A stretch of DNA of 22,658 nucleotides from a virus, in the IMG/VR virus record IMGVR_UViG_3300030507_000041, positions 1-22,658 of that record. One strand, 5' to 3'. The notes beneath the pieces are model-generated. The model was not told the origin of the DNA. It did not search any database and saw nothing but the letters and a program-made list of their open reading frames with translations. Of this stretch, positions 1 to 21,935 are shown in pieces; within the stretch, counting starts at the first letter, position 1; each line of letters opens with the position of its first letter. The position numbers were made by a program, and so were the translations under genes.

Positions 1-1590
1 AACTGGTTTTACGATAATATCTTTCGCTATCTGAAAGAGGGCGATCAGGAATATATGGATCGTCTGAAGCGCGCCTATCGCTTCAATCACACTCGCGAAA
101 TCGTCGATCTGGTTCAAAAATACATCTTCAAGACCGAGCCTGCGCGAAACGTCACCGACGCGCCGGCGGCGATTAAGACATTTTGGGAAGACTGCACGCT
201 CGCCGGGCTCGAAATCAACCAGTTCATGCGCCTGGTCTCCACGGCCTCATCGATCGATGGTCGCATCTGGGTGTTCGTTGATTCGACGCAGAGTCAGGTC
301 GGCGTTTCCGTCGCCGACGCCAAGAAGGCCGGCGCCCGAGTCTACGCCTATATCGTTCGCGCCATCAACATGCTCGACATGGGGCTCGACGAGGATACCG
401 GCGCGCTGAAATGGGTGCTGGTGCGTGAATATCACCGCAACGACGCCGATCCGGTCAACGATAATGGCTTCGTCGAGGAACGCTATCGGCTGTGGACCGA
501 AGACGAGTGGGTGCTGTTCAAGATCGTTGACATCTCCAAGGAGCAACAGCAGCAATTACAGCTGGTGCAGCCGTCGGCGCTCGAAGCCAACCCGAACATT
601 TCCGCCTATGTCACGCAACAGACCTCGATGACGCAGCAGACGCTGACGCCAAAGGTTATCGATCGTGGCCCTGTAACTATCGGTCGCGTGCCATGCTTCG
701 CTGTCGATAACGTGATTGGCGATCATCGCTACAGCTCGCCGGCGCTGATCGAGGACATCGCCTATCTCGATCGCGCCGTCGCCAATTACTGCTCGAATCT
801 CGACGCGGTGATTCAGGATCAGACTTTCTCGCAGCTGGTTATTCCGACTCAGGCGATCGTCGAAGGTCAGGATAAATACGATCCGCTCTATCAGCTCGGC
901 ACCAAGCGCATCTTCACTTATGACGCCGAGGGCGGCAGAGCGCCGGAGTATATTTCACCCGACGCCTCGCAGGCGAAGGTGATCATGGACACCATCGCCG
1001 CGACCATTCACGAGATTTATCATTCCGTCGGCATGGCGGGAGAGCGCACCAGCAAGGATAACGCCGTCGGCACCGATGATTCATCCGGCGTCGCCAAGGC
1101 ATATGACTTCGAGAAGTTGAATTCGCTGCTGACTACCAAGGCCGAGGCGAACGAAAACGCCGAAAACAAGCTGGTCGAGTTGGTGCTTCTGATGAATGGC
1201 ATCAAGGAGATGCCGACGGAAGAACTGGTTGAATACCCCGACACTTTCGATGTGCGCTCACTGTTCGATGAATTCACTGTCGCCGAGAAACTTGAGCTGA
1301 TTGGGGCGCCCGACACCGTGCGTCGCGTTCAGATGGGTCAGGTGCAGGCTAAGCTATTTCCAGCGCAGCCAAAGGCAGAAGCCGCCGAAATGGCCGAGGA
1401 ACTCAAAAGCTGGCCTCCAGAGCCGCTCGAAATCACGCTGGCGACAATGAGCGCCGCAAATGGCAGTCCGCCACAGGGTTCGATTAAGAATGCGCCCGCA
1501 TCCTCTTCAGCGCCCGGTGGAAAGCCGGCGGCGTCAAGGAATCCCCAGACGAAAAATCGTCAGGGACAGGTCACTTCGGAAACGAAGTGA
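1..1590 (+). CDS. Portal protein (5' end missing)
   Basis: The reading frame is open from base 1, before the first ATG at 55, so the gene begins upstream of the window; at least 529 residues are present. I infer the dodecameric portal at the head vertex, through which DNA is packaged and ejected. Supporting signs are its place directly before scaffold and capsid genes, its length, and the acidic, charged helical central and C-terminal region (segments such as HEIYHSVGMAGERTS and a long Ala/Glu/Lys helix that follows) typical of portal stem and clip regions. The last ~60 residues are Pro/Ser/Ala-rich and probably disordered. The final codons form half of a perfect hairpin that includes the stop. 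It could belong to one of several portal families; I cannot say which without a search. The terminase genes would be expected upstream. Confidence 0.8.
   Translation, partial: NWFYDNIFRYLKEGDQEYMDRLKRAYRFNHTREIVDLVQKYIFKTEPARNVTDAPAAIKTFWEDCTLAGLEINQFMRLVSTASSIDGRIWVFVDSTQSQVGVSVADAKKAGARVYAYIVRAINMLDMGLDEDTGALKWVLVREYHRNDADPVNDNGFVEERYRLWTEDEWVLFKIVDISKEQQQQLQLVQPSALEANPNISAYVTQQTSMTQQTLTPKVIDRGPVTIGRVPCFAVDNVIGDHRYSSPALIEDIAYLDRAVANYCSNLDAVIQDQTFSQLVIPTQAIVEGQDKYDPLYQLGTKRIFTYDAEGGRAPEYISPDASQAKVIMDTIAATIHEIYHSVGMAGERTSKDNAVGTDDSSGVAKAYDFEKLNSLLTTKAEANENAENKLVELVLLMNGIKEMPTEELVEYPDTFDVRSLFDEFTVAEKLELIGAPDTVRRVQMGQVQAKLFPAQPKAEAAEMAEELKSWPPEPLEITLATMSAANGSPPQGSIKNAPASSSAPGGKPAASRNPQTKNRQGQVTSETK
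1571..1590 (+). other. Perfect 8-bp hairpin with GAAA tetraloop over the portal stop codon
   Basis: TCACTTCG (1571-1578) and CGAAGTGA (1583-1590) are perfect reverse complements around the loop GAAA, a GNRA-type tetraloop. The right arm ends exactly with the portal TGA stop. No T-run follows, so it does not look like an intrinsic terminator. It may stabilise the upstream mRNA end or mark a processing site. Confidence 0.6.
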
Positions 1591-1596
1591 ATTTCC

Positions 1597-1637
1597 GAGC
1601 CGAGAAACTGGCTCAACCGTAGGCCGAGAAACTGGCC
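1597..1637 (+). promoter_or_regulatory. Two tandem hairpins with identical loop GAGAAACT before the scaffold gene
   Basis: Hairpin A is GAGCC (1597-1601), loop GAGAAACT, GGCTC (1610-1614). Hairpin B is GGCC (1622-1625), the same loop GAGAAACT, GGCC (1634-1637). The stems differ yet both pair, so the loop sequence and the paired state are kept while stem bases vary. Hairpin B directly abuts the scaffold Shine-Dalgarno GAGGAG (1638-1643). This suggests an RNA-level element, such as a protein-binding site controlling scaffold translation, but that role is inference. The structure also contains a 14-base direct repeat (1599-1612 and 1623-1636). Confidence 0.55.
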
Positions 1638-1649
1638 GAGGAGTAGTAG

Positions 1650-2528
1650 ATGAATAAGATGATGAAATACTGGGGCGTCGCTCATTTCGACGCCGCCGAC
1701 GACAAAGCCGCGGCTGATGAAGCCTCGCGCATCGCCGCCGAAAAGGTCGCGGCCGACGCCGCCGCCAAGGCCATCGCGGATAAGGAAGCCGCCGACGCCG
1801 AAGCCGCCCGTATCGCCGCCAGCAAGATTCCCGAGGCCGAAGCCAAACTTCTCAAGGAAGTGATGGCGAAGAAGAAGCTGATCGAGGATCTTCAGGAGAA
1901 GCTCAAGGGCTTCGATGGCGTCGATCCCACCGAATTCAAAAAGCTGACCGAGCAGAAGAAAGAGGCCGAAAAGGCCAAAAAGGACGCCGAGAAGAAAGCT
2001 GCCGAAGCCGCCGGCGACATCGATCGGGTCAAGAAGATCATGGTCGAGGAGCATGAGCGCACGTTGGCGGAAGCCGTCGCCGCGCATGACGTAACCAAGC
2101 AGGCGCTCGCCAAGAAGGACGCCGAGATCAACGATCTGACGGTCGGCCAGGCGTTCAACGTGTCGCCGTTCGTCACCACCGAGCTGGTGCTGACGCCGAC
2201 CAAGGCGCGCGCGGTTTATGGCGCGTATTTCGAAAGCAAGGACGGCAAGGTCGTCGGCTACGACAAGCCGGCGGGCGCCGCCGAGCGCACCGAGCTGATC
2301 GATGGCAAAGGCAAGCCGCTACCGTTCGAGGCGGCTATTCGTAAGCTGGTCGAGTCGGATGCGGATCGCGATCATATGCTGAAGTCGAAGATCGCCGCCG
2401 GCGCCGGTTCGAAGCCTGGCGCTTCGGGCGCGAAAGTTACTGTCGAGGGCGATGGCGAACCGCGTGGTTTGGCGCGTTTATCGGCGGCTTTGGCGAAAAG
2501 CGGCTTCGGCAACGCCTCGAAAAAGTAA
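1650..2528 (+). CDS. Capsid scaffolding protein
   Basis: The 292-residue product is inferred to be the internal scaffold that guides procapsid assembly and is then lost or degraded. Residues ~15-165 are extremely rich in Ala, Glu, Lys and Asp with heptad-like spacing, a long coiled coil typical of scaffolds. The C-terminal third (~170-275) has a mixed segment with VYGAYFESKDGKVVGYD, then an Ala/Gly-rich tail, a pattern I associate with scaffolds encoded just before HK97-fold capsid genes. The start is set by GAGGAG at 1638-1643, six bases before the ATG. The gene lies between portal and capsid genes, as expected. No protease motif is visible, so a scaffold-protease fusion is unlikely. The two upstream hairpins may regulate its translation. 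Confidence 0.8.
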   Translation: MNKMMKYWGVAHFDAADDKAAADEASRIAAEKVAADAAAKAIADKEAADAEAARIAASKIPEAEAKLLKEVMAKKKLIEDLQEKLKGFDGVDPTEFKKLTEQKKEAEKAKKDAEKKAAEAAGDIDRVKKIMVEEHERTLAEAVAAHDVTKQALAKKDAEINDLTVGQAFNVSPFVTTELVLTPTKARAVYGAYFESKDGKVVGYDKPAGAAERTELIDGKGKPLPFEAAIRKLVESDADRDHMLKSKIAAGAGSKPGASGAKVTVEGDGEPRGLARLSAALAKSGFGNASKK

Positions 2529-3629: not shown

Positions 3630-3644
3630 GCTTTGAGTGGTGAG

Positions 3645-3923
3645 ATGACAAAACAAATCGAAATTTATGGCCACAATGGCTGCGCCTGGTGCGAGCGAGC
3701 TAGGGCGCTGGCGACGCGATTCAAGCAGCCGTTCGTATATTATAACTATACGAACGATCCAGCCATACTTGCCGAACTGCTGCTACGCGGCAATAAGGCC
3801 GGCGTCGAGGTTAGAACCGTGCCGCAGATTTTCATCGGCGACATTTTACTTGGCGGTTACGAAGACTTCGCTAAGGCGATAGAAAACGGCGAGATCGCGA
3901 ATTTTCTATCTGGAGAAGTGTAA
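3645..3923 (+). CDS. Glutaredoxin
   Basis: The 92-residue product is a small cytoplasmic thiol-disulfide oxidoreductase of the glutaredoxin family. Visible signs are the beta strand QIEIYGHNG followed by the active-site pair C13-A-W-C16, the cis-proline motif TVPQIF, and the LGGYEDF turn that helps bind glutathione, all in the correct order and at typical family length. The CAWC site lacks the Pro of the common CPYC. The ATG at 3645 is preferred over TTG at 3633, which would sit directly on the terminator T-run with no ribosome binding site. Its stop overlaps the next start (TAATG). Phage glutaredoxins usually sit with ribonucleotide reductase genes; its place between capsid and connector genes is unusual. 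Whether it acts on virion, phage or host thiols is unknown. Confidence 0.88.
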   Translation: MTKQIEIYGHNGCAWCERARALATRFKQPFVYYNYTNDPAILAELLLRGNKAGVEVRTVPQIFIGDILLGGYEDFAKAIENGEIANFLSGEV

Positions 3924-18800: not shown

Positions 18801-20536
18801 TGACCACCTCTGCCTCGCTTAACGCAGATGGCACGCTGATGGTCGATTTAAACGCGACATGGGCGCCGACGCCGGAGATGACGCCGCCAGCGGGTGCGCC
18901 GCCAGGCTGGTATAATAATTTCGCCTATTTCAACGTGTCGATTTCTCAAAACGGCGGCGCATATGTCAGTTACCAGACGGCGCTGCCGAGCTTCTCATGG
19001 GATGGGCTCGTAGCCGACACGCCTTATTCGGTCGAAGTCGCCGCGGTGTCGCAAAACGGCTACTCGTCGTATTTTTGCAGCTCGGTCAGTATCACCAGCG
19101 CCGCGCAGACCACTGGTCCCGCTGCGCCGACTTCCTTCACCGTCGCCGCCTCGCTGAAATCAGCCTATCTGCAATGGATTAATCCGAGCAACACCGATCT
19201 CGCCGGCGTGCAAATTTGGCAGAGCATGGATTCGGTCGAGGCGGACGCGGTGCTGGTTGGCTCGGTGTCGGGCCAGGCGTTCACCGTTTCCGGACTGACC
19301 ACCGGCACGGCCTATAATTATTGGCTGCGCCCGTTCAATACCTCGGGATTGTTTGGCGCCTATGTCGGGCCTGTATCGGTCACGCCGGGCCAGGTGGCAA
19401 ACGGCGACATCGCCGCCAGCGCCATCACCGCTGATAAGATTCTCGCCGGCACCATCACCGGCGATCGACTTAACGTGAGCACCTCATTTCCGGCGACGAT
19501 CACCGTCGGCTCGTCGGGCATCACCATGGGTGCGATGCTCAATCCGGCGAACTTGATCAACGCCGGCAGCACGACGATTAATCCGGGCCAAATTCTGATC
19601 GCAGGCTCGACCACATTAGCGAACTGGCAGCAGGGCGGCGACACCACCAAAATCTCCGGCGGCGCTATCTCGGCCAACACCATCGCGGCCAACGCGCTCA
19701 CCATCGGCCTGCGCGGTATCACCGTGACCGGCATTCGGTTTTCGTTCGACGGCTCCAATAATCTCAACTGGACCGCCGGCGCGATCGGCTACGTCGATAA
19801 CTCTGGCACGGCGCAAAATGTGGCGATCAGCGCCGGCACGGCCGCTTGGACCACGGGCACGCTGTATGTCGGTTGGGCGATGGGCGCCACAACGCTCGTC
19901 ACCAACACCGCGCCCTATTCGGCCGCGACCTACGTCGCTCTGGCGGTCTACAGCGGCGGCACCTATCTGGTCGCGGATTATGGTCAGACCACTATCACCG
20001 GAGCGATGATCGTCACCGGCTCGATCACCGCGGCGCAGATCCAGACCGGCACCATAACCGCGGCGCAGATAGCAGCGGGCACGATCACCGCGACGCAGAT
20101 TGCCGCGAATTCAGTCACTTTTGATAAGATGGCGGGCGGCACCATCAGCGCCTCGACGGCGATCTATCTTGGCGGCACCACTTTCGAATTGAGCGCCACC
20201 AATCAGCAGCTGATCATTCAGGACGCGCAGCTGACGCCAGTGACGCGGGTGATCATCGGTAATCTCACCGGCGGCGCCTCGAATTATGGCGCGGAGTTTT
20301 TCAACGCCGCCGGCGCGCTGATCTTTTCTACTGGCGGCGGCATCTCGGCGGCGGCTATCTCGCCGGGTCTAATTGTTGACTCGATGATCACGAGCATCGC
20401 AGCATCGAAGATCGTCGCGACCAGTCTATCGGCTATTTCCGCCAATCTCGGCACGATCACCGCCGGTCAAGCCAGTGATGCCGCTGGTATGTTCGTGATT
20501 AATTTCACCAACGCTAATTTGATCGTGTCGGATTAA
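15893..20536 (+). CDS. Host-specificity / tail tip protein, lambda J-like
   Basis: The product has 1547 residues, a large central tip protein that contacts the host receptor. A Gly/Lys-rich start (~12-28) precedes YPNSLQSDTQIQVIELISEG, the hallmark of the J N-terminus. Conserved J features follow: SYAVKGLIIEVPSNYDP, LRDLLVNNRYGLG near residue 300 and NRYGRWAIDTEE near 465. Several fibronectin-III-like segments occupy ~630-1160. The C-terminal ~380 residues are Thr/Ile/Gly/Ala-rich beta repeats, including three 10-residue units (20021-20110), and probably form a trimeric fibre ending in the receptor-binding region. The ATG at 15893 overlaps the I stop; ATG 15896 is also possible. It is longer than lambda J (about 1130 residues), mainly through added fibronectin-like domains. 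Confidence 0.9.
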   Translation: MMTPKFLPAPIQGSGGGKKGGGKGGGASTASTVTYPNSLQSDTQIQVIELISEGPIVGLVNGGNSILFGNTPVVNPDATVNFHGVSWNFQNGGPDQMPFPGNSGAQTVFNVGTEVLAELSIVRTIDDANTTSVIIITEIPALMSTYNGSTYPWTVGWMVEVQPVDGAWTTVVNRTIYGVCSSPVYIQDSFVLPVGGFPWNIRYSRTIANQNGTTFIGQTFFSSYIEVVEAQLTYPYSAVVALEVDAAYFGSSSLPTRSYAVKGLIIEVPSNYDPIARTYTGVWDGTFKNAWTNNPAWILRDLLVNNRYGLGQFLSADMVDIWGLYAIAQYCDGQVSDGYGGMETRYTMNIQIMDQQEAFKVIQTIAAAFRGMAFWSLSQVFCVADMPADPIKLYSPANVIGGHFEYSGTAMTSRHSVALVTWYDPSNFYIAAVEVVIDDALLQKFGWRQLVIDARGCTTRAMANRYGRWAIDTEETATDTVQFSASFDSANIVPGDIIAIADPYKAEVRAGGRIIAISGNYVTIDAPFVPGVGETYNLLVELPDGSIATGAIYGFDVTNTIIELETAFSPQPQIAAMFVISGTDVEPRQFTVLSRNETAPNIFQITGLFYDPTKFARIEQDINFNPVNYYRPPTTIMPPSNMTFNESVFLTNGVGSNNLTVSWTPGPDFLAVSYQVSALTPNGFVSYGSVSQATFTLNNPTVGEYTFYVSDVGLAGLVSTPLTASYTVTSWTGQPTPTVSNLEIAGQGNSTTFGGQNCTVVWNNNFPITSYDYGAAGEPAGGQPNPFYRDNLVQIYDPTGQTLLSTWSTTTNTFEYTFAQNTADNAPFNQPAQRSFLIVVTVRDTLGNESQPVSILCDNPVPAMIIPNVTASLSTIYVNYPPPADLDYSGSIIWLSTTQNFNPLTTTPVYNGALNAVSFPAASFTTYYVMLACYDAFNQLNLNICPAIAITVGGVLVDTTPPPVPTGLALTTSASLNADGTLMVDLNATWAPTPEMTPPAGAPPGWYNNFAYFNVSISQNGGAYVSYQTALPSFSWDGLVADTPYSVEVAAVSQNGYSSYFCSSVSITSAAQTTGPAAPTSFTVAASLKSAYLQWINPSNTDLAGVQIWQSMDSVEADAVLVGSVSGQAFTVSGLTTGTAYNYWLRPFNTSGLFGAYVGPVSVTPGQVANGDIAASAITADKILAGTITGDRLNVSTSFPATITVGSSGITMGAMLNPANLINAGSTTINPGQILIAGSTTLANWQQGGDTTKISGGAISANTIAANALTIGLRGITVTGIRFSFDGSNNLNWTAGAIGYVDNSGTAQNVAISAGTAAWTTGTLYVGWAMGATTLVTNTAPYSAATYVALAVYSGGTYLVADYGQTTITGAMIVTGSITAAQIQTGTITAAQIAAGTITATQIAANSVTFDKMAGGTISASTAIYLGGTTFELSATNQQLIIQDAQLTPVTRVIIGNLTGGASNYGAEFFNAAGALIFSTGGGISAAAISPGLIVDSMITSIAASKIVATSLSAISANLGTITAGQASDAAGMFVINFTNANLIVSD
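20021..20110 (+). repeat. Three 30-base tandem repeats in the J C-terminal region
   Basis: Three in-frame 30-base units at 20021-20050, 20051-20080 and 20081-20110 encode SITAAQIQTG, TITAAQIAAG and TITATQIAAN. Differences are largely at third positions or conservative, so the protein repeat seems to be kept by selection. Further diverged units (SAITADKILAGTITGDRL) occur about 600 bases upstream. Confidence 0.8.
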
Positions 20537-20539
20537 GTC

Positions 20540-20977
20540 ATGACCAAGCGGCTTTTATTGGGAGCATTTCCAGATGGGGGCTACGGGCTGCGCATTAGCG
20601 AGCCCGGTTACGATGTTACGTCGAATCCCGTGGATAATGAGCAGTTGCTTTTCAATTCAGACTGGCCTGGCGTGCTGCCGATTTACTTACTTGGCAATGT
20701 GTCGGTCAGCAACTCAACTGTGACGGTGACGTATCCCGATAATCTTGGCTATCTACCAATGGCTTCAGTATTGATGAACGACAACGGCGGGGGCTATCAG
20801 GTATTTGCGTTGACAAATAATGTTGTGGATGTCGGATCGCTAAGCGGTTATGTGTTCGAGGGTAACGCTTTTACCAATGTTCAGGTAACTCTATACGTCG
20901 ATCATGCCACCTTTTATTCTAGCGGCACGCTGGACTTTAGTTACGCCATTTATCGCATGAAGGGATTTACGTCATGA
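20540..20977 (+). CDS. Putative tail fibre accessory protein, paralog 1 of 3
   Basis: The product has 145 residues. I do not recognise the family. It is the first of three tandem genes sharing an N-terminal pattern M-x-x-R-hydrophobic-(I/L)-L followed by IS-x-PG-x-D. Here that reads MTKRLLLG, then LRISEPGYDVT. The rest is beta-rich and low in charge, with VDHATFYSSGTLDFSYAIY near the end. It starts three bases after the J stop (TAAGTCATG) and overlaps the next start (ATGA). Placement after J and the strand-rich make-up suggest a tail tip decoration, fibre or receptor-binding protein; this is inference. Confidence 0.55.
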   Translation: MTKRLLLGAFPDGGYGLRISEPGYDVTSNPVDNEQLLFNSDWPGVLPIYLLGNVSVSNSTVTVTYPDNLGYLPMASVLMNDNGGGYQVFALTNNVVDVGSLSGYVFEGNAFTNVQVTLYVDHATFYSSGTLDFSYAIYRMKGFTS

Positions 20978-21447
20978 GCCAGCGCGTCATTTTAGGAAAT
21001 TATGACGGCAATGTCGGCATGTGGATCTCGGCGCCGGGTAAGGACGCCAGTTCGACGGTGTTCGAAGATCTGTTGGTTGATACGACCCGCATCAATATGC
21101 AGCCGATCATGAAAGGTGTAATATCAGGTATATCGATGCCGCAAACCGCCTCTTCGTCGCCGTTCGTAATTTATATAAGCGGGTTGCCGTTCAACGAGAG
21201 CGGCTGGATGAACTGGGGTCTGACCATCACGCACGGGCTTGGTTACGTGCCGCTATGTCATCTATCAATTTTAAACTACGAACCGGGCACTGACTCGCCG
21301 CAAGTATATATTACGAGCACCACATTGACGCTTTTTTACAGTCAGGTTTGGACTAATAGTGGATTAGGTATTCCCAATTCTATGCCTAATCCGATCAGCT
21401 TCAACGCTGACTTTCACTGGACGCTATTTCGTCAGGCGGCGGTGTGA
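20974..21447 (+). CDS. Putative tail fibre accessory protein, paralog 2 of 3
   Basis: The product has 157 residues. The N-terminus MSQRVILGNYDGNVGMWIS and APGKDAS matches the pattern of paralog 1. The middle contains WGLTITHGLGYVPLCHLSI; paralog 1 has a related NLGYLPMASVLMN segment, so the similarity continues into the core. The end (FNADFHWTLFRQ) is again a strand followed by a basic tail. The ATG overlaps the previous stop by four bases. The 'GYVP' core, with strands either side, recalls small phage structural proteins that carry a conserved histidine-Gly-Tyr-x-Pro turn. Function is unknown beyond a likely virion role. Confidence 0.55.
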   Translation: MSQRVILGNYDGNVGMWISAPGKDASSTVFEDLLVDTTRINMQPIMKGVISGISMPQTASSSPFVIYISGLPFNESGWMNWGLTITHGLGYVPLCHLSILNYEPGTDSPQVYITSTTLTLFYSQVWTNSGLGIPNSMPNPISFNADFHWTLFRQAAV

Positions 21448-21935
21448 TGGTCGAGCGCATCATTTTAAACGATACCACGTTTCAAATTAGCCGGCCCGGC
21501 TACGATGTGACCACTTGCACCGAGCAGGAGATCGCCTTCGACGGCTTTCTTGGGCCTTATAATGGCTGTCTGATGTCGGGTGAAAGCTCCGAGGGCTCGA
21601 CAGGTTGGACCAGCTACTCAACCGGAAATCCGTTTCTTGGCGGCGCGACGGTTTATCGCAACTATCTCAATATTCCATTTGGTTTTTCGCTATCAGCGCC
21701 GCCGCAGGTGATTTACACTGTGCGTAATACGGGTGGTGGGTTAACCGGCGGCGCCTGGCCGAGATTCGCGGCGGCGAATAATCCTAGCGGGTCGGGTTAT
21801 GAGACGGCGGTGGTGTGCGGCGCCGTCACCTATGTTGATCACCTGATGCTTTACATCGATACGCCATTCGAGAGCATCTTCACCGGCAGTTACGGTATCG
21901 CCTTCGACATCGCCTATGTGGTGTTTCAAACCTAG
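21447..21935 (+). CDS. Putative tail fibre accessory protein, paralog 3 of 3
   Basis: The product has 162 residues. It begins MVERIILNDTTFQISRPGYD, matching the other two paralogs in the M-x-x-R start and the IS-x-PG-x-D turn. That alignment favours ATG 21447 (sharing one base with the previous stop) over GTG 21444. The middle has SLSAPPQVIYTVRNTGG, in the place of the GYxP core of the others, and the end has VDHLMLYIDTPFES and IAFDIAYVVF, close to the VDHATFY and LDFSYAIY of paralog 1. It is the most Gly/Ser-rich of the three. Function unknown; a tip or fibre component is inferred. Confidence 0.55.
   Translation: MVERIILNDTTFQISRPGYDVTTCTEQEIAFDGFLGPYNGCLMSGESSEGSTGWTSYSTGNPFLGGATVYRNYLNIPFGFSLSAPPQVIYTVRNTGGGLTGGAWPRFAAANNPSGSGYETAVVCGAVTYVDHLMLYIDTPFESIFTGSYGIAFDIAYVVFQT

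Follow-up and report, generated by a model that had tools for sequence, protein, structure and literature searches.

A conserved cassette of three related genes behind the phage tail-tip gene J and its possible role as a heterotrimeric receptor-binding head

Introduction

The tail-tip hub of phage lambda is a trimer, and in lambda-like J proteins the terminal unit, a homotrimeric tip, is part of the J chain itself. Most known phage fibre tips are encoded by one gene and form homotrimers, and the known H-type lectins, which bind sugar at their subunit interfaces, are homo-oligomers. A trimer can also be built from paralogues, as in the PCNA1-2-3 heterotrimer of Sulfolobus. In phage T1, a head protein heterotrimer consists of gp48 and two gp49 (PMC11945409). 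In phage JBD30, the tail-tip hub gp53 is a trimer, and a single receptor-binding gene, gp54, lies behind the hub gene. The gp54 product forms three homotrimers arranged as a tripod; this distal receptor-binding end is docked on the C-terminus of the hub (PMC11445458).

Here, we analyse a stretch of viral DNA of 22,658 nucleotides (IMG/VR record IMGVR_UViG_3300030507_000041, positions 1 to 22,658; the whole stretch is called the window below), which is closed by a lambda-type tail module with the genes L, K, I, J, p1, p2, p3, ORF4 and ORF5. Like gp54 of JBD30 (PMC11445458), p1-p3 are encoded directly after the hub or J-like protein, and like the C-terminal domain of lambda-like J they would have their place at the end of J. 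The differences are that the terminal unit here consists of three separate, non-identical proteins, and that gp54 is a single gene with homotrimeric products and an alpha-helical N-terminal thigh bundle that grips the C-terminus of the hub (PMC11445458), whereas p1-p3 are three paralogues with an all-beta prediction and an N-terminal beta-hairpin. We will argue that p1, p2 and p3 constitute, with somewhat better than even probability, an ancient three-unit tail-tip cassette whose products form a receptor-binding, heterotrimeric (1:1:1) head on J. The logic, in which duplicated subunits share the positions of a trimer, is that of PCNA1-2-3 and T1 gp48/gp49, which are other proteins with other functions and for which no homology is claimed. 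Literature searches returned no description of a heterotrimeric phage tail tip or of an H-type lectin fibre.

Results and Discussion

The coordinates of the features are collected in Table 1. J matches phrog_31, 'central tail fiber J', with an E-value of 4.5e-227 and phrog_1727 with 2.2e-224, its Pfam matches are Phage-tail_3 and FNIII-A_GpJ, and it is the expected carrier of the p1, p2 and p3 products. The stop of J is at 20536, and the cassette genes are coupled through 4-nt start/stop overlaps, ATGA for p1/p2 and GTGA for p2/p3 (TGATG with the ATG start of p3, which is the more likely one of the two). The GC content is 48.6% over 20500-21499, the cassette, versus about 52-62% across J. Over J residues 1-560, the window has an identical match in another IMG/VR contig, 3300029982_000278, which stops within J. 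As to ORF4, its relatives come after the cassette in other phages, while in cassette-free phages ORF4-like ORFs seem to lie directly 3' of J; ORF4 is thus associated with J and is not a member of the cassette.

Table 1. Positions of the tail-tip features in the window and of one remote counterpart
Feature	Coordinates	Strand	Evidence or remarks
J, tail tip / host specificity protein, 1547 aa	15893..20536	+	phrog_31, phrog_1727, Pfam
J C-terminal ~40 residues, ending ...FVINFTNANLIVSD	20414..20536	+	resembles '..RILIAD' end of other cassette-preceding J
p1, 145 aa	20540-20977	+	p1-profile match, AlphaFold2 model
p1 conserved N-terminal hairpin, residues 1-45	20540-20674	+	
p1 beta-sandwich body (predicted), residues 46-145	20675-20974	+	
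p2, 157 aa	20974-21447	+	p2-profile match; aligns with p2 of Rhizobium phages ('MWVSKPG')
p3, 163 aa from GTG 21444, 162 aa from ATG 21447	21444-21935	+	p3-profile match
ORF4, 131 aa	21945..22340	+	syntenic neighbour of cassette; Y-D/N-x-x-G-x-I start, Ig-like end
BUCT603 gp46-gp45 (locus L262, own numbering)	1269-2233	-	1+2 layout after J

A first-pass annotation, made from the letters alone, had described three overlapping ORFs directly behind J as paralogues, and the features on which it relied are all present at that location. The shared M-x-x-R-hydrophobic start reads MTKRLLL in p1, MSQRVIL in p2 and MVERIIL in p3, the IS-x-PG-x-D motif reads ISEPGYD, ISAPGKD and ISRPGYD at residues 19, 18 and 14, respectively, the G-Y-x-P core is LGYLP in p1 and LGYVP in p2, and p1 and p3 end alike (VDH...FSYAIY and VDH...FDIAYVV). 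Like most p3 of close relatives, the p3 of the window is without the Gly loop of 4-8 residues between strands 1 and 2.

Positional HMMs were constructed from 50 other loci, with the window excluded and with 60 shuffled decoys and the remaining ORFs of the window as controls; a mixed alignment of 12 sequences was too diverse for scanning, and the positional alignments were used instead. The window ORFs match their own positional models with E-values of 1.6e-31 (p1), 4.6e-17 (p2) and 3.6e-14 (p3), and these three are the only window ORFs matched, all other ORFs and decoys having E-values of at least 1e-3 (1.4e-3 for the best shuffled decoy). The profile-profile comparisons p1-p2, p1-p3 and p2-p3 with hhalign give probabilities of 99.4-99.7% and E-values of 1e-22 to 1e-26 over about 120 columns, compared to at most 0.6% for the column-shuffled, reversed and ORF4 controls. 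These results establish p1, p2 and p3 as true paralogues, and the motifs are the visible portion of a homology at the profile level. Sharing of motifs by chance is ruled out by the decoys. Searches of Pfam, PHROGs and NCBIfam with the single window proteins gave nothing usable; none of the three collections covers p1-p3, in agreement with the annotation, which knew of no described family.

By tblastn, p1 has relatives in the Brevundimonas phages MaInes and StAshley and in the Rhizobium phages RHph_N1_10, RHEph10 and others. In the Rhizobium phages, p2 matches the gene after p1 and p3 the one after that, the three genes lying in the gp019-gp021 region of RHEph10, and J-p1-p2-p3-ORF4 is thus a conserved block. 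The p1 of MaInes (L001, 8001-8432) is an intact ORF that is unannotated in GenBank ON529866. A scan of IMG/VR with the window p1 alone found no relative; scans of IMG/VR with J, p1, p2, p3 and a marine-type profile, together with GTDB genomes, extended the set of carriers to Rhizobiales prophages and many metagenomic phages in addition to the Rhizobium and Brevundimonas phages. The GTDB genomes with cassette relatives include Nitratireductor, Chelativorans, Aquamicrobium and Devosia, and a survey of the order containing one of these hosts was positive for 14 of 397 genomes. The closest relative of the window p1, at locus L184, is 43% identical over the protein and 78% over the first 50 residues.

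In some marine phages (L140, L148, L203-L221, L231, L238) the cassette lies behind a structural protein of roughly 430-650 aa instead of J. These structural proteins match phrog_15511 or phrog_3287 where any match exists, and many of them end in ..EPRLVLNPxGNxxPE..R.YF. The cassette is thus not bound to J alone and is present in another tail type. Enlarged marine versions also occur: at L108 (1942-10143) the products of the three genes are 908, 440 and 1379 aa long, there are long insertions within the unit, and p3 carries poly-Gly stretches that we take to be reminiscent of gp38-type adhesins. The same enlargement is seen in L110-L112, and another at L109 (1477-5217 and 6001-9054).

We now consider the number of units. 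When profile domains are counted per cluster, exactly three are found in 108 of the 122 clusters (54 of 59 in an earlier, narrower census). It should be pointed out that clusters were merged for identical C-termini only, so that close relatives are counted repeatedly in these figures; among the triplets of separate genes, 42 representatives are left at below 50% mean identity. The units are laid out as three genes, as 1+2 or 2+1 fusions in about 20 loci (e.g. L148, L170, L203, L206, L143, L194), or as a single polypeptide with all three (L231 and L238), and the fusions are of both kinds, p1-p2 and p2-p3. As for the 14 deviating clusters, a third unit can be recognised by eye in L108, L146, L149 and L246, the sequence is cut by the contig or locus end in L205 and L193, and L062 and L073 have the gamma-type layout discussed below, while L109, L228, L235, L252 and L259 seem to be genuine deviations. 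The scans were performed with p1, p2 or p3 singly, and a separate J-only scan gave 54 loci with enough downstream sequence, namely 3 triplets, 28 gamma-type 1+2 layouts and 23 with neither; the number three is thus not built into the search. The window itself has exactly three units, located directly behind the tail-tip protein in the order p1-p2-p3. The annotation had suggested looking for copy-number variation of the locus in relatives, and the outcome is the opposite, a number that is nearly fixed even through fusion.

The order of the units is conserved as well. With a leave-one-group-out profile assignment, the position is recovered for 43 of 54 group-level units, compared to 18 expected, and each of the three window proteins has its highest score with the profile of its own position. 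Support in the maximum-likelihood tree is poor, but its grouping follows position, with 5 changes versus 14.8 for shuffled labels. The p1, p2 and p3 distances co-vary (Mantel r 0.35-0.44, 0 of 2000 permutations), a result that kinship of the phages alone could also yield. The existence of position-specific orthologues means that the p1/p2/p3 split predates the Rhizobium, Brevundimonas and metagenomic phage lineages, and judged from the sequences the duplication is ancient, not recent. A recent local duplication is rejected, as each position has orthologues elsewhere. The stepwise duplication with rapid divergence that the annotation had envisaged thus holds for the strong divergence of the bodies and is not supported as a local or recent event. 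Its idea of interchangeable subunits finds no support either: a shuffling of such subunits is rejected by the conserved position and sits badly with the co-variation of the three genes.

Two arrangements of the products have to be weighed at this point. With a trimeric hub, a fold type that trimerises (see below) and three units kept through fusions, the simplest account is that the units share the places of one trimer, and the number rule then predicts a 1:1:1 complex. The main alternative is that p1, p2 and p3 each form a homotrimer of their own, stacked beyond J or borne by different arms, and that each trimer has a receptor or a structural role to itself. This we regard as rather unlikely, although it accommodates most of the same facts: phage fibre tips of such a fold are homotrimers, as is each leg of the JBD30 tripod (PMC11445458), fusion of neighbouring units would suit a stack, and orthologues at each position are what fixed layers would lead one to expect. 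A stack, however, offers no reason for exactly three layers across distant phages, the fusions join p1 to p2 as well as p2 to p3, and gain or loss of layers would be expected.

We now turn to the connection between the cassette and the end of J. Of the J proteins that lie upstream of a triplet, 26 were detected by phmmer, and every one of these has an Asp among its last four residues, as opposed to 1 of 23 cassette-free J proteins (L083). All 26 close in one kind of strand, with endings such as ..RILIAD, ..RIVIADSS and ..FIISD, and that of the window is ..NLIVSD. In the cassette-free J proteins of L014, L021 and L046 the corresponding segment is internal (E-values 3.4e-6, 5e-7 and 0.008) and is followed by 226, 173 and 125 further residues, respectively. 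As the terminal strand of the cassette-bearing J proteins is internal in these three, the cassette appears to stand in for a terminal domain that is otherwise encoded by J itself, and we propose the C-terminal strand of J as the candidate docking site.

The structure of the window p1 was predicted with AlphaFold2 from a 55-row alignment (pLDDT 82.4, pTM 0.66). The model consists of an N-terminal hairpin (strands 5-9 and 15-20) followed by a beta-sandwich (strands 36-39, 48-64, 74-81, 84-90, 114-118 and 122-138), and with its strands and one 3-residue helix it is without an alpha-helical thigh bundle of the gp54 type. For the body (residues 46-145), VIA-align gives Z-scores of 7.4 for T4 gp9, 6.9 for the Pam1 tailspike, 6.5 for the P. 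aeruginosa pseudaminidase, 6.1 for LKA1, 5.6 for phage K gp144, 5.5 for phi297, 5.3 for the R2 pyocin fibre, 5.0 for Fri1 and 4.8 for the T7 gp17 tip. The top matches are mostly phage fibre, spike or baseplate proteins. Since all of these Z-scores are below 8, where common arrangements also score, they indicate a likely fold type and not a demonstrated relation. According to the model, p1 likely consists of a hairpin and a beta-sandwich similar to that of trimeric phage fibre tips (Z 4.8-7.4), which supports the tip- or fibre-like character suggested earlier, and the same fold is assigned to p2 and p3 by homology. A Foldseek search of the PDB returned no match at E ≤ 1e-3, a PDB sequence search with the family profile gave no match, and the 8 BFVD matches at E ≤ 1e-3 include none with a named function.

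Of the natural fusions, the two-unit set was folded and not the triple one, as MAFFT stacks all single units on the third domain of L231/L238. The two-unit chain of L148 (18 fused sequences; pLDDT 80.0, pTM 0.73) has its units placed against each other with some confidence, judging from the pTM, and the model supports packing of two units but not an arrangement around a threefold axis; BFVD models of similar two-domain proteins reproduce no single arrangement (TM 0.30-0.41). Domain 2 of L148 resembles the C-terminus of the P. aeruginosa pseudaminidase with a Z-score of 8.9, and the H-type lectin domains of discoidin I/II with Z-scores of 6.3-6.8, i.e. below 8, and rmsd values of 2.5-2.9 Å. Discoidin is absent from the list of structural matches of the window p1. 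The predicted beta-sandwich of cassette relatives may resemble the H-type lectin fold (discoidin I/II, PF09458; Gp53-like_C, PF21882), but no cassette member reaches the Pfam cut-off: PF09458 has no match to the window p1-p3 at E ≤ 1, its best E-value among 27 family members is 0.018, under the Pfam gathering threshold, and the weak H-type lectin and Gp53-like_C signals (0.018 and 0.047) come from one member each.

Often the hairpin is conserved and the body variable. The identities of p1 over the N-terminal 50 aa and over the rest are 0.78 and 0.27 for the window and L184, 0.76 and 0.22 for L094 and L115, and 0.80 and 0.40 for L006 and L007, and in a comparison of two Rhizobium phages no tail genes are less conserved than p1 and p2 (0.79, compared to 0.88 for J). 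Faster divergence of the body than of the hairpin is not universal, exceptions being p1 of L165-L169 and p2 of L006-L007. We count this variation, which resembles that of adhesins, in favour of a receptor-binding head. It also bears on the proposal that the products are non-adhesive tip proteins, either a cap or plug closing J or a decoration lost on attachment. Such a role would go well with small, compact products, genes that always adjoin a tail-tip or structural gene, and a conserved docking hairpin. We nevertheless judge it improbable, as the body is often the variable part, just as in adhesins, the marine homologues are extended by long insertions and contain poly-Gly repeats, and the fold matches are mostly to receptor-binding tips.

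For the heterotrimeric head, we infer presence of the products in the virion, trimerisation in a 1:1:1 composition, docking on J and binding of a receptor. The conserved N-terminal hairpin (MxxRhhL...hxISxPGxD) would dock each product, and the variable C-terminal beta-sandwich would belong to the type of fold from which trimeric phage fibre tips and H-type lectins are built. A single copy each of p1, p2 and p3 would in this way assemble into a head seated on the J homotrimer, at its C-terminal strands, where other J proteins have their own C-terminal domain. The head would bind the host surface, probably a glycan. With the sugar sites of H-type lectins lying at the interfaces, a heterotrimer would have three different sites, the binding surface differing from one subunit interface to the next. 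The hetero-oligomer considered in the annotation is thus plausible, the heterotrimer being our own inference. If correct, this would be an asymmetric adhesin of three co-inherited subunits whose interfaces could each have a ligand of their own, and a family of small 'hypothetical proteins' that Rhizobium, Brevundimonas and many metagenomic phages encode behind the tail-tip gene would gain a function.

A remote counterpart may exist in gamma- and betaproteobacterial J loci. There, J is followed by a protein of about 100 aa (gS) and then by a two-repeat protein of about 235 aa (gA+gB), which together make three related units: the hhalign probabilities are 93.6-95.8% for gS-gA and gS-gB and 50-69% for gA-gB. 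These families (PHROG 3370/4062/6061) likewise come after J, as in Xanthomonas phage phiL7 (P22-P23) and in BUCT603 (gp46-gp45), but they are without the MxxR...ISxPG hairpin of p1-p3 and have one fixed split, 1+2. P22 and P23 of phiL7 (L261, 11711-12693) fit the pattern with E-values of 6.6e-19 (gS), 9e-8 (gA) and 1.7e-9 (gB). The connection with p1-p3 is weak, though it holds in either direction, with a best hmmsearch E-value of 6e-6 and a best reversed decoy of 0.06 in that search; the matches of gA, gB and gS-alpha, at 1e-3 to 6e-6, are likewise weak and above the reversed decoys. The best hhalign match between the two groups is gA-p3 (56%), and the L148 model matches phiL7 p23 in Foldseek with an E-value of 1.4e-4. 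The PHROG models 3370 and 4062 have no direct match to p1-p3 of the window, for which the only PHROG hit is phrog_21060 to p3 (0.032). The sequences are thus only suggestive of a relation between the gamma/beta units and p1-p3.

The counterpart has a bearing on the possibility that the products are not virion proteins at all but chaperones for J assembly (Tfa/gp38-like) or superinfection-exclusion proteins of the lysogen. Genes after tail fibre genes are often chaperones, and in N15, phi80 and Rtp, exclusion genes of the cor type adjoin those for the tail fibres (PMC4936722). By mass spectrometry, however, gp45 is among 24 virion proteins of BUCT603, with 5 peptides and 29% coverage (PMC9294509, Table 3), its assignment to the gamma-type family being based on an E-value of 5e-4 and on position. 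Its one-domain partner gp46 (E 1e-4) is absent from the same list (PMC9294509). Together with the all-beta prediction resembling fibre tips, the conservation of three paralogues, and units that in the loci read are fused to each other and not to J, this makes a non-virion role very improbable. For AH14a, the particles were without tails, so that the proteomics is uninformative for tail proteins (PMC4936722).

Extended beyond the window, the proposal would be that many tailed phages carry an obligate p1-p2-p3 heterotrimer as the head, at times with the subunits fused into one or two chains, in which the threefold symmetry of the tail tip is broken and the three binding interfaces are not equivalent, with the J-gS-gA+gB layout following the same principle. 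We regard this generalisation as having close to an even chance, falling slightly short of it, and it would perhaps also provide a function for the unnamed PHROG 3370/4062 families.

Among the head genes of the window, finally, there is a glutaredoxin-like ORF at 3633-3923 with a CAWC motif and a TTG start, the likeness being judged by eye.
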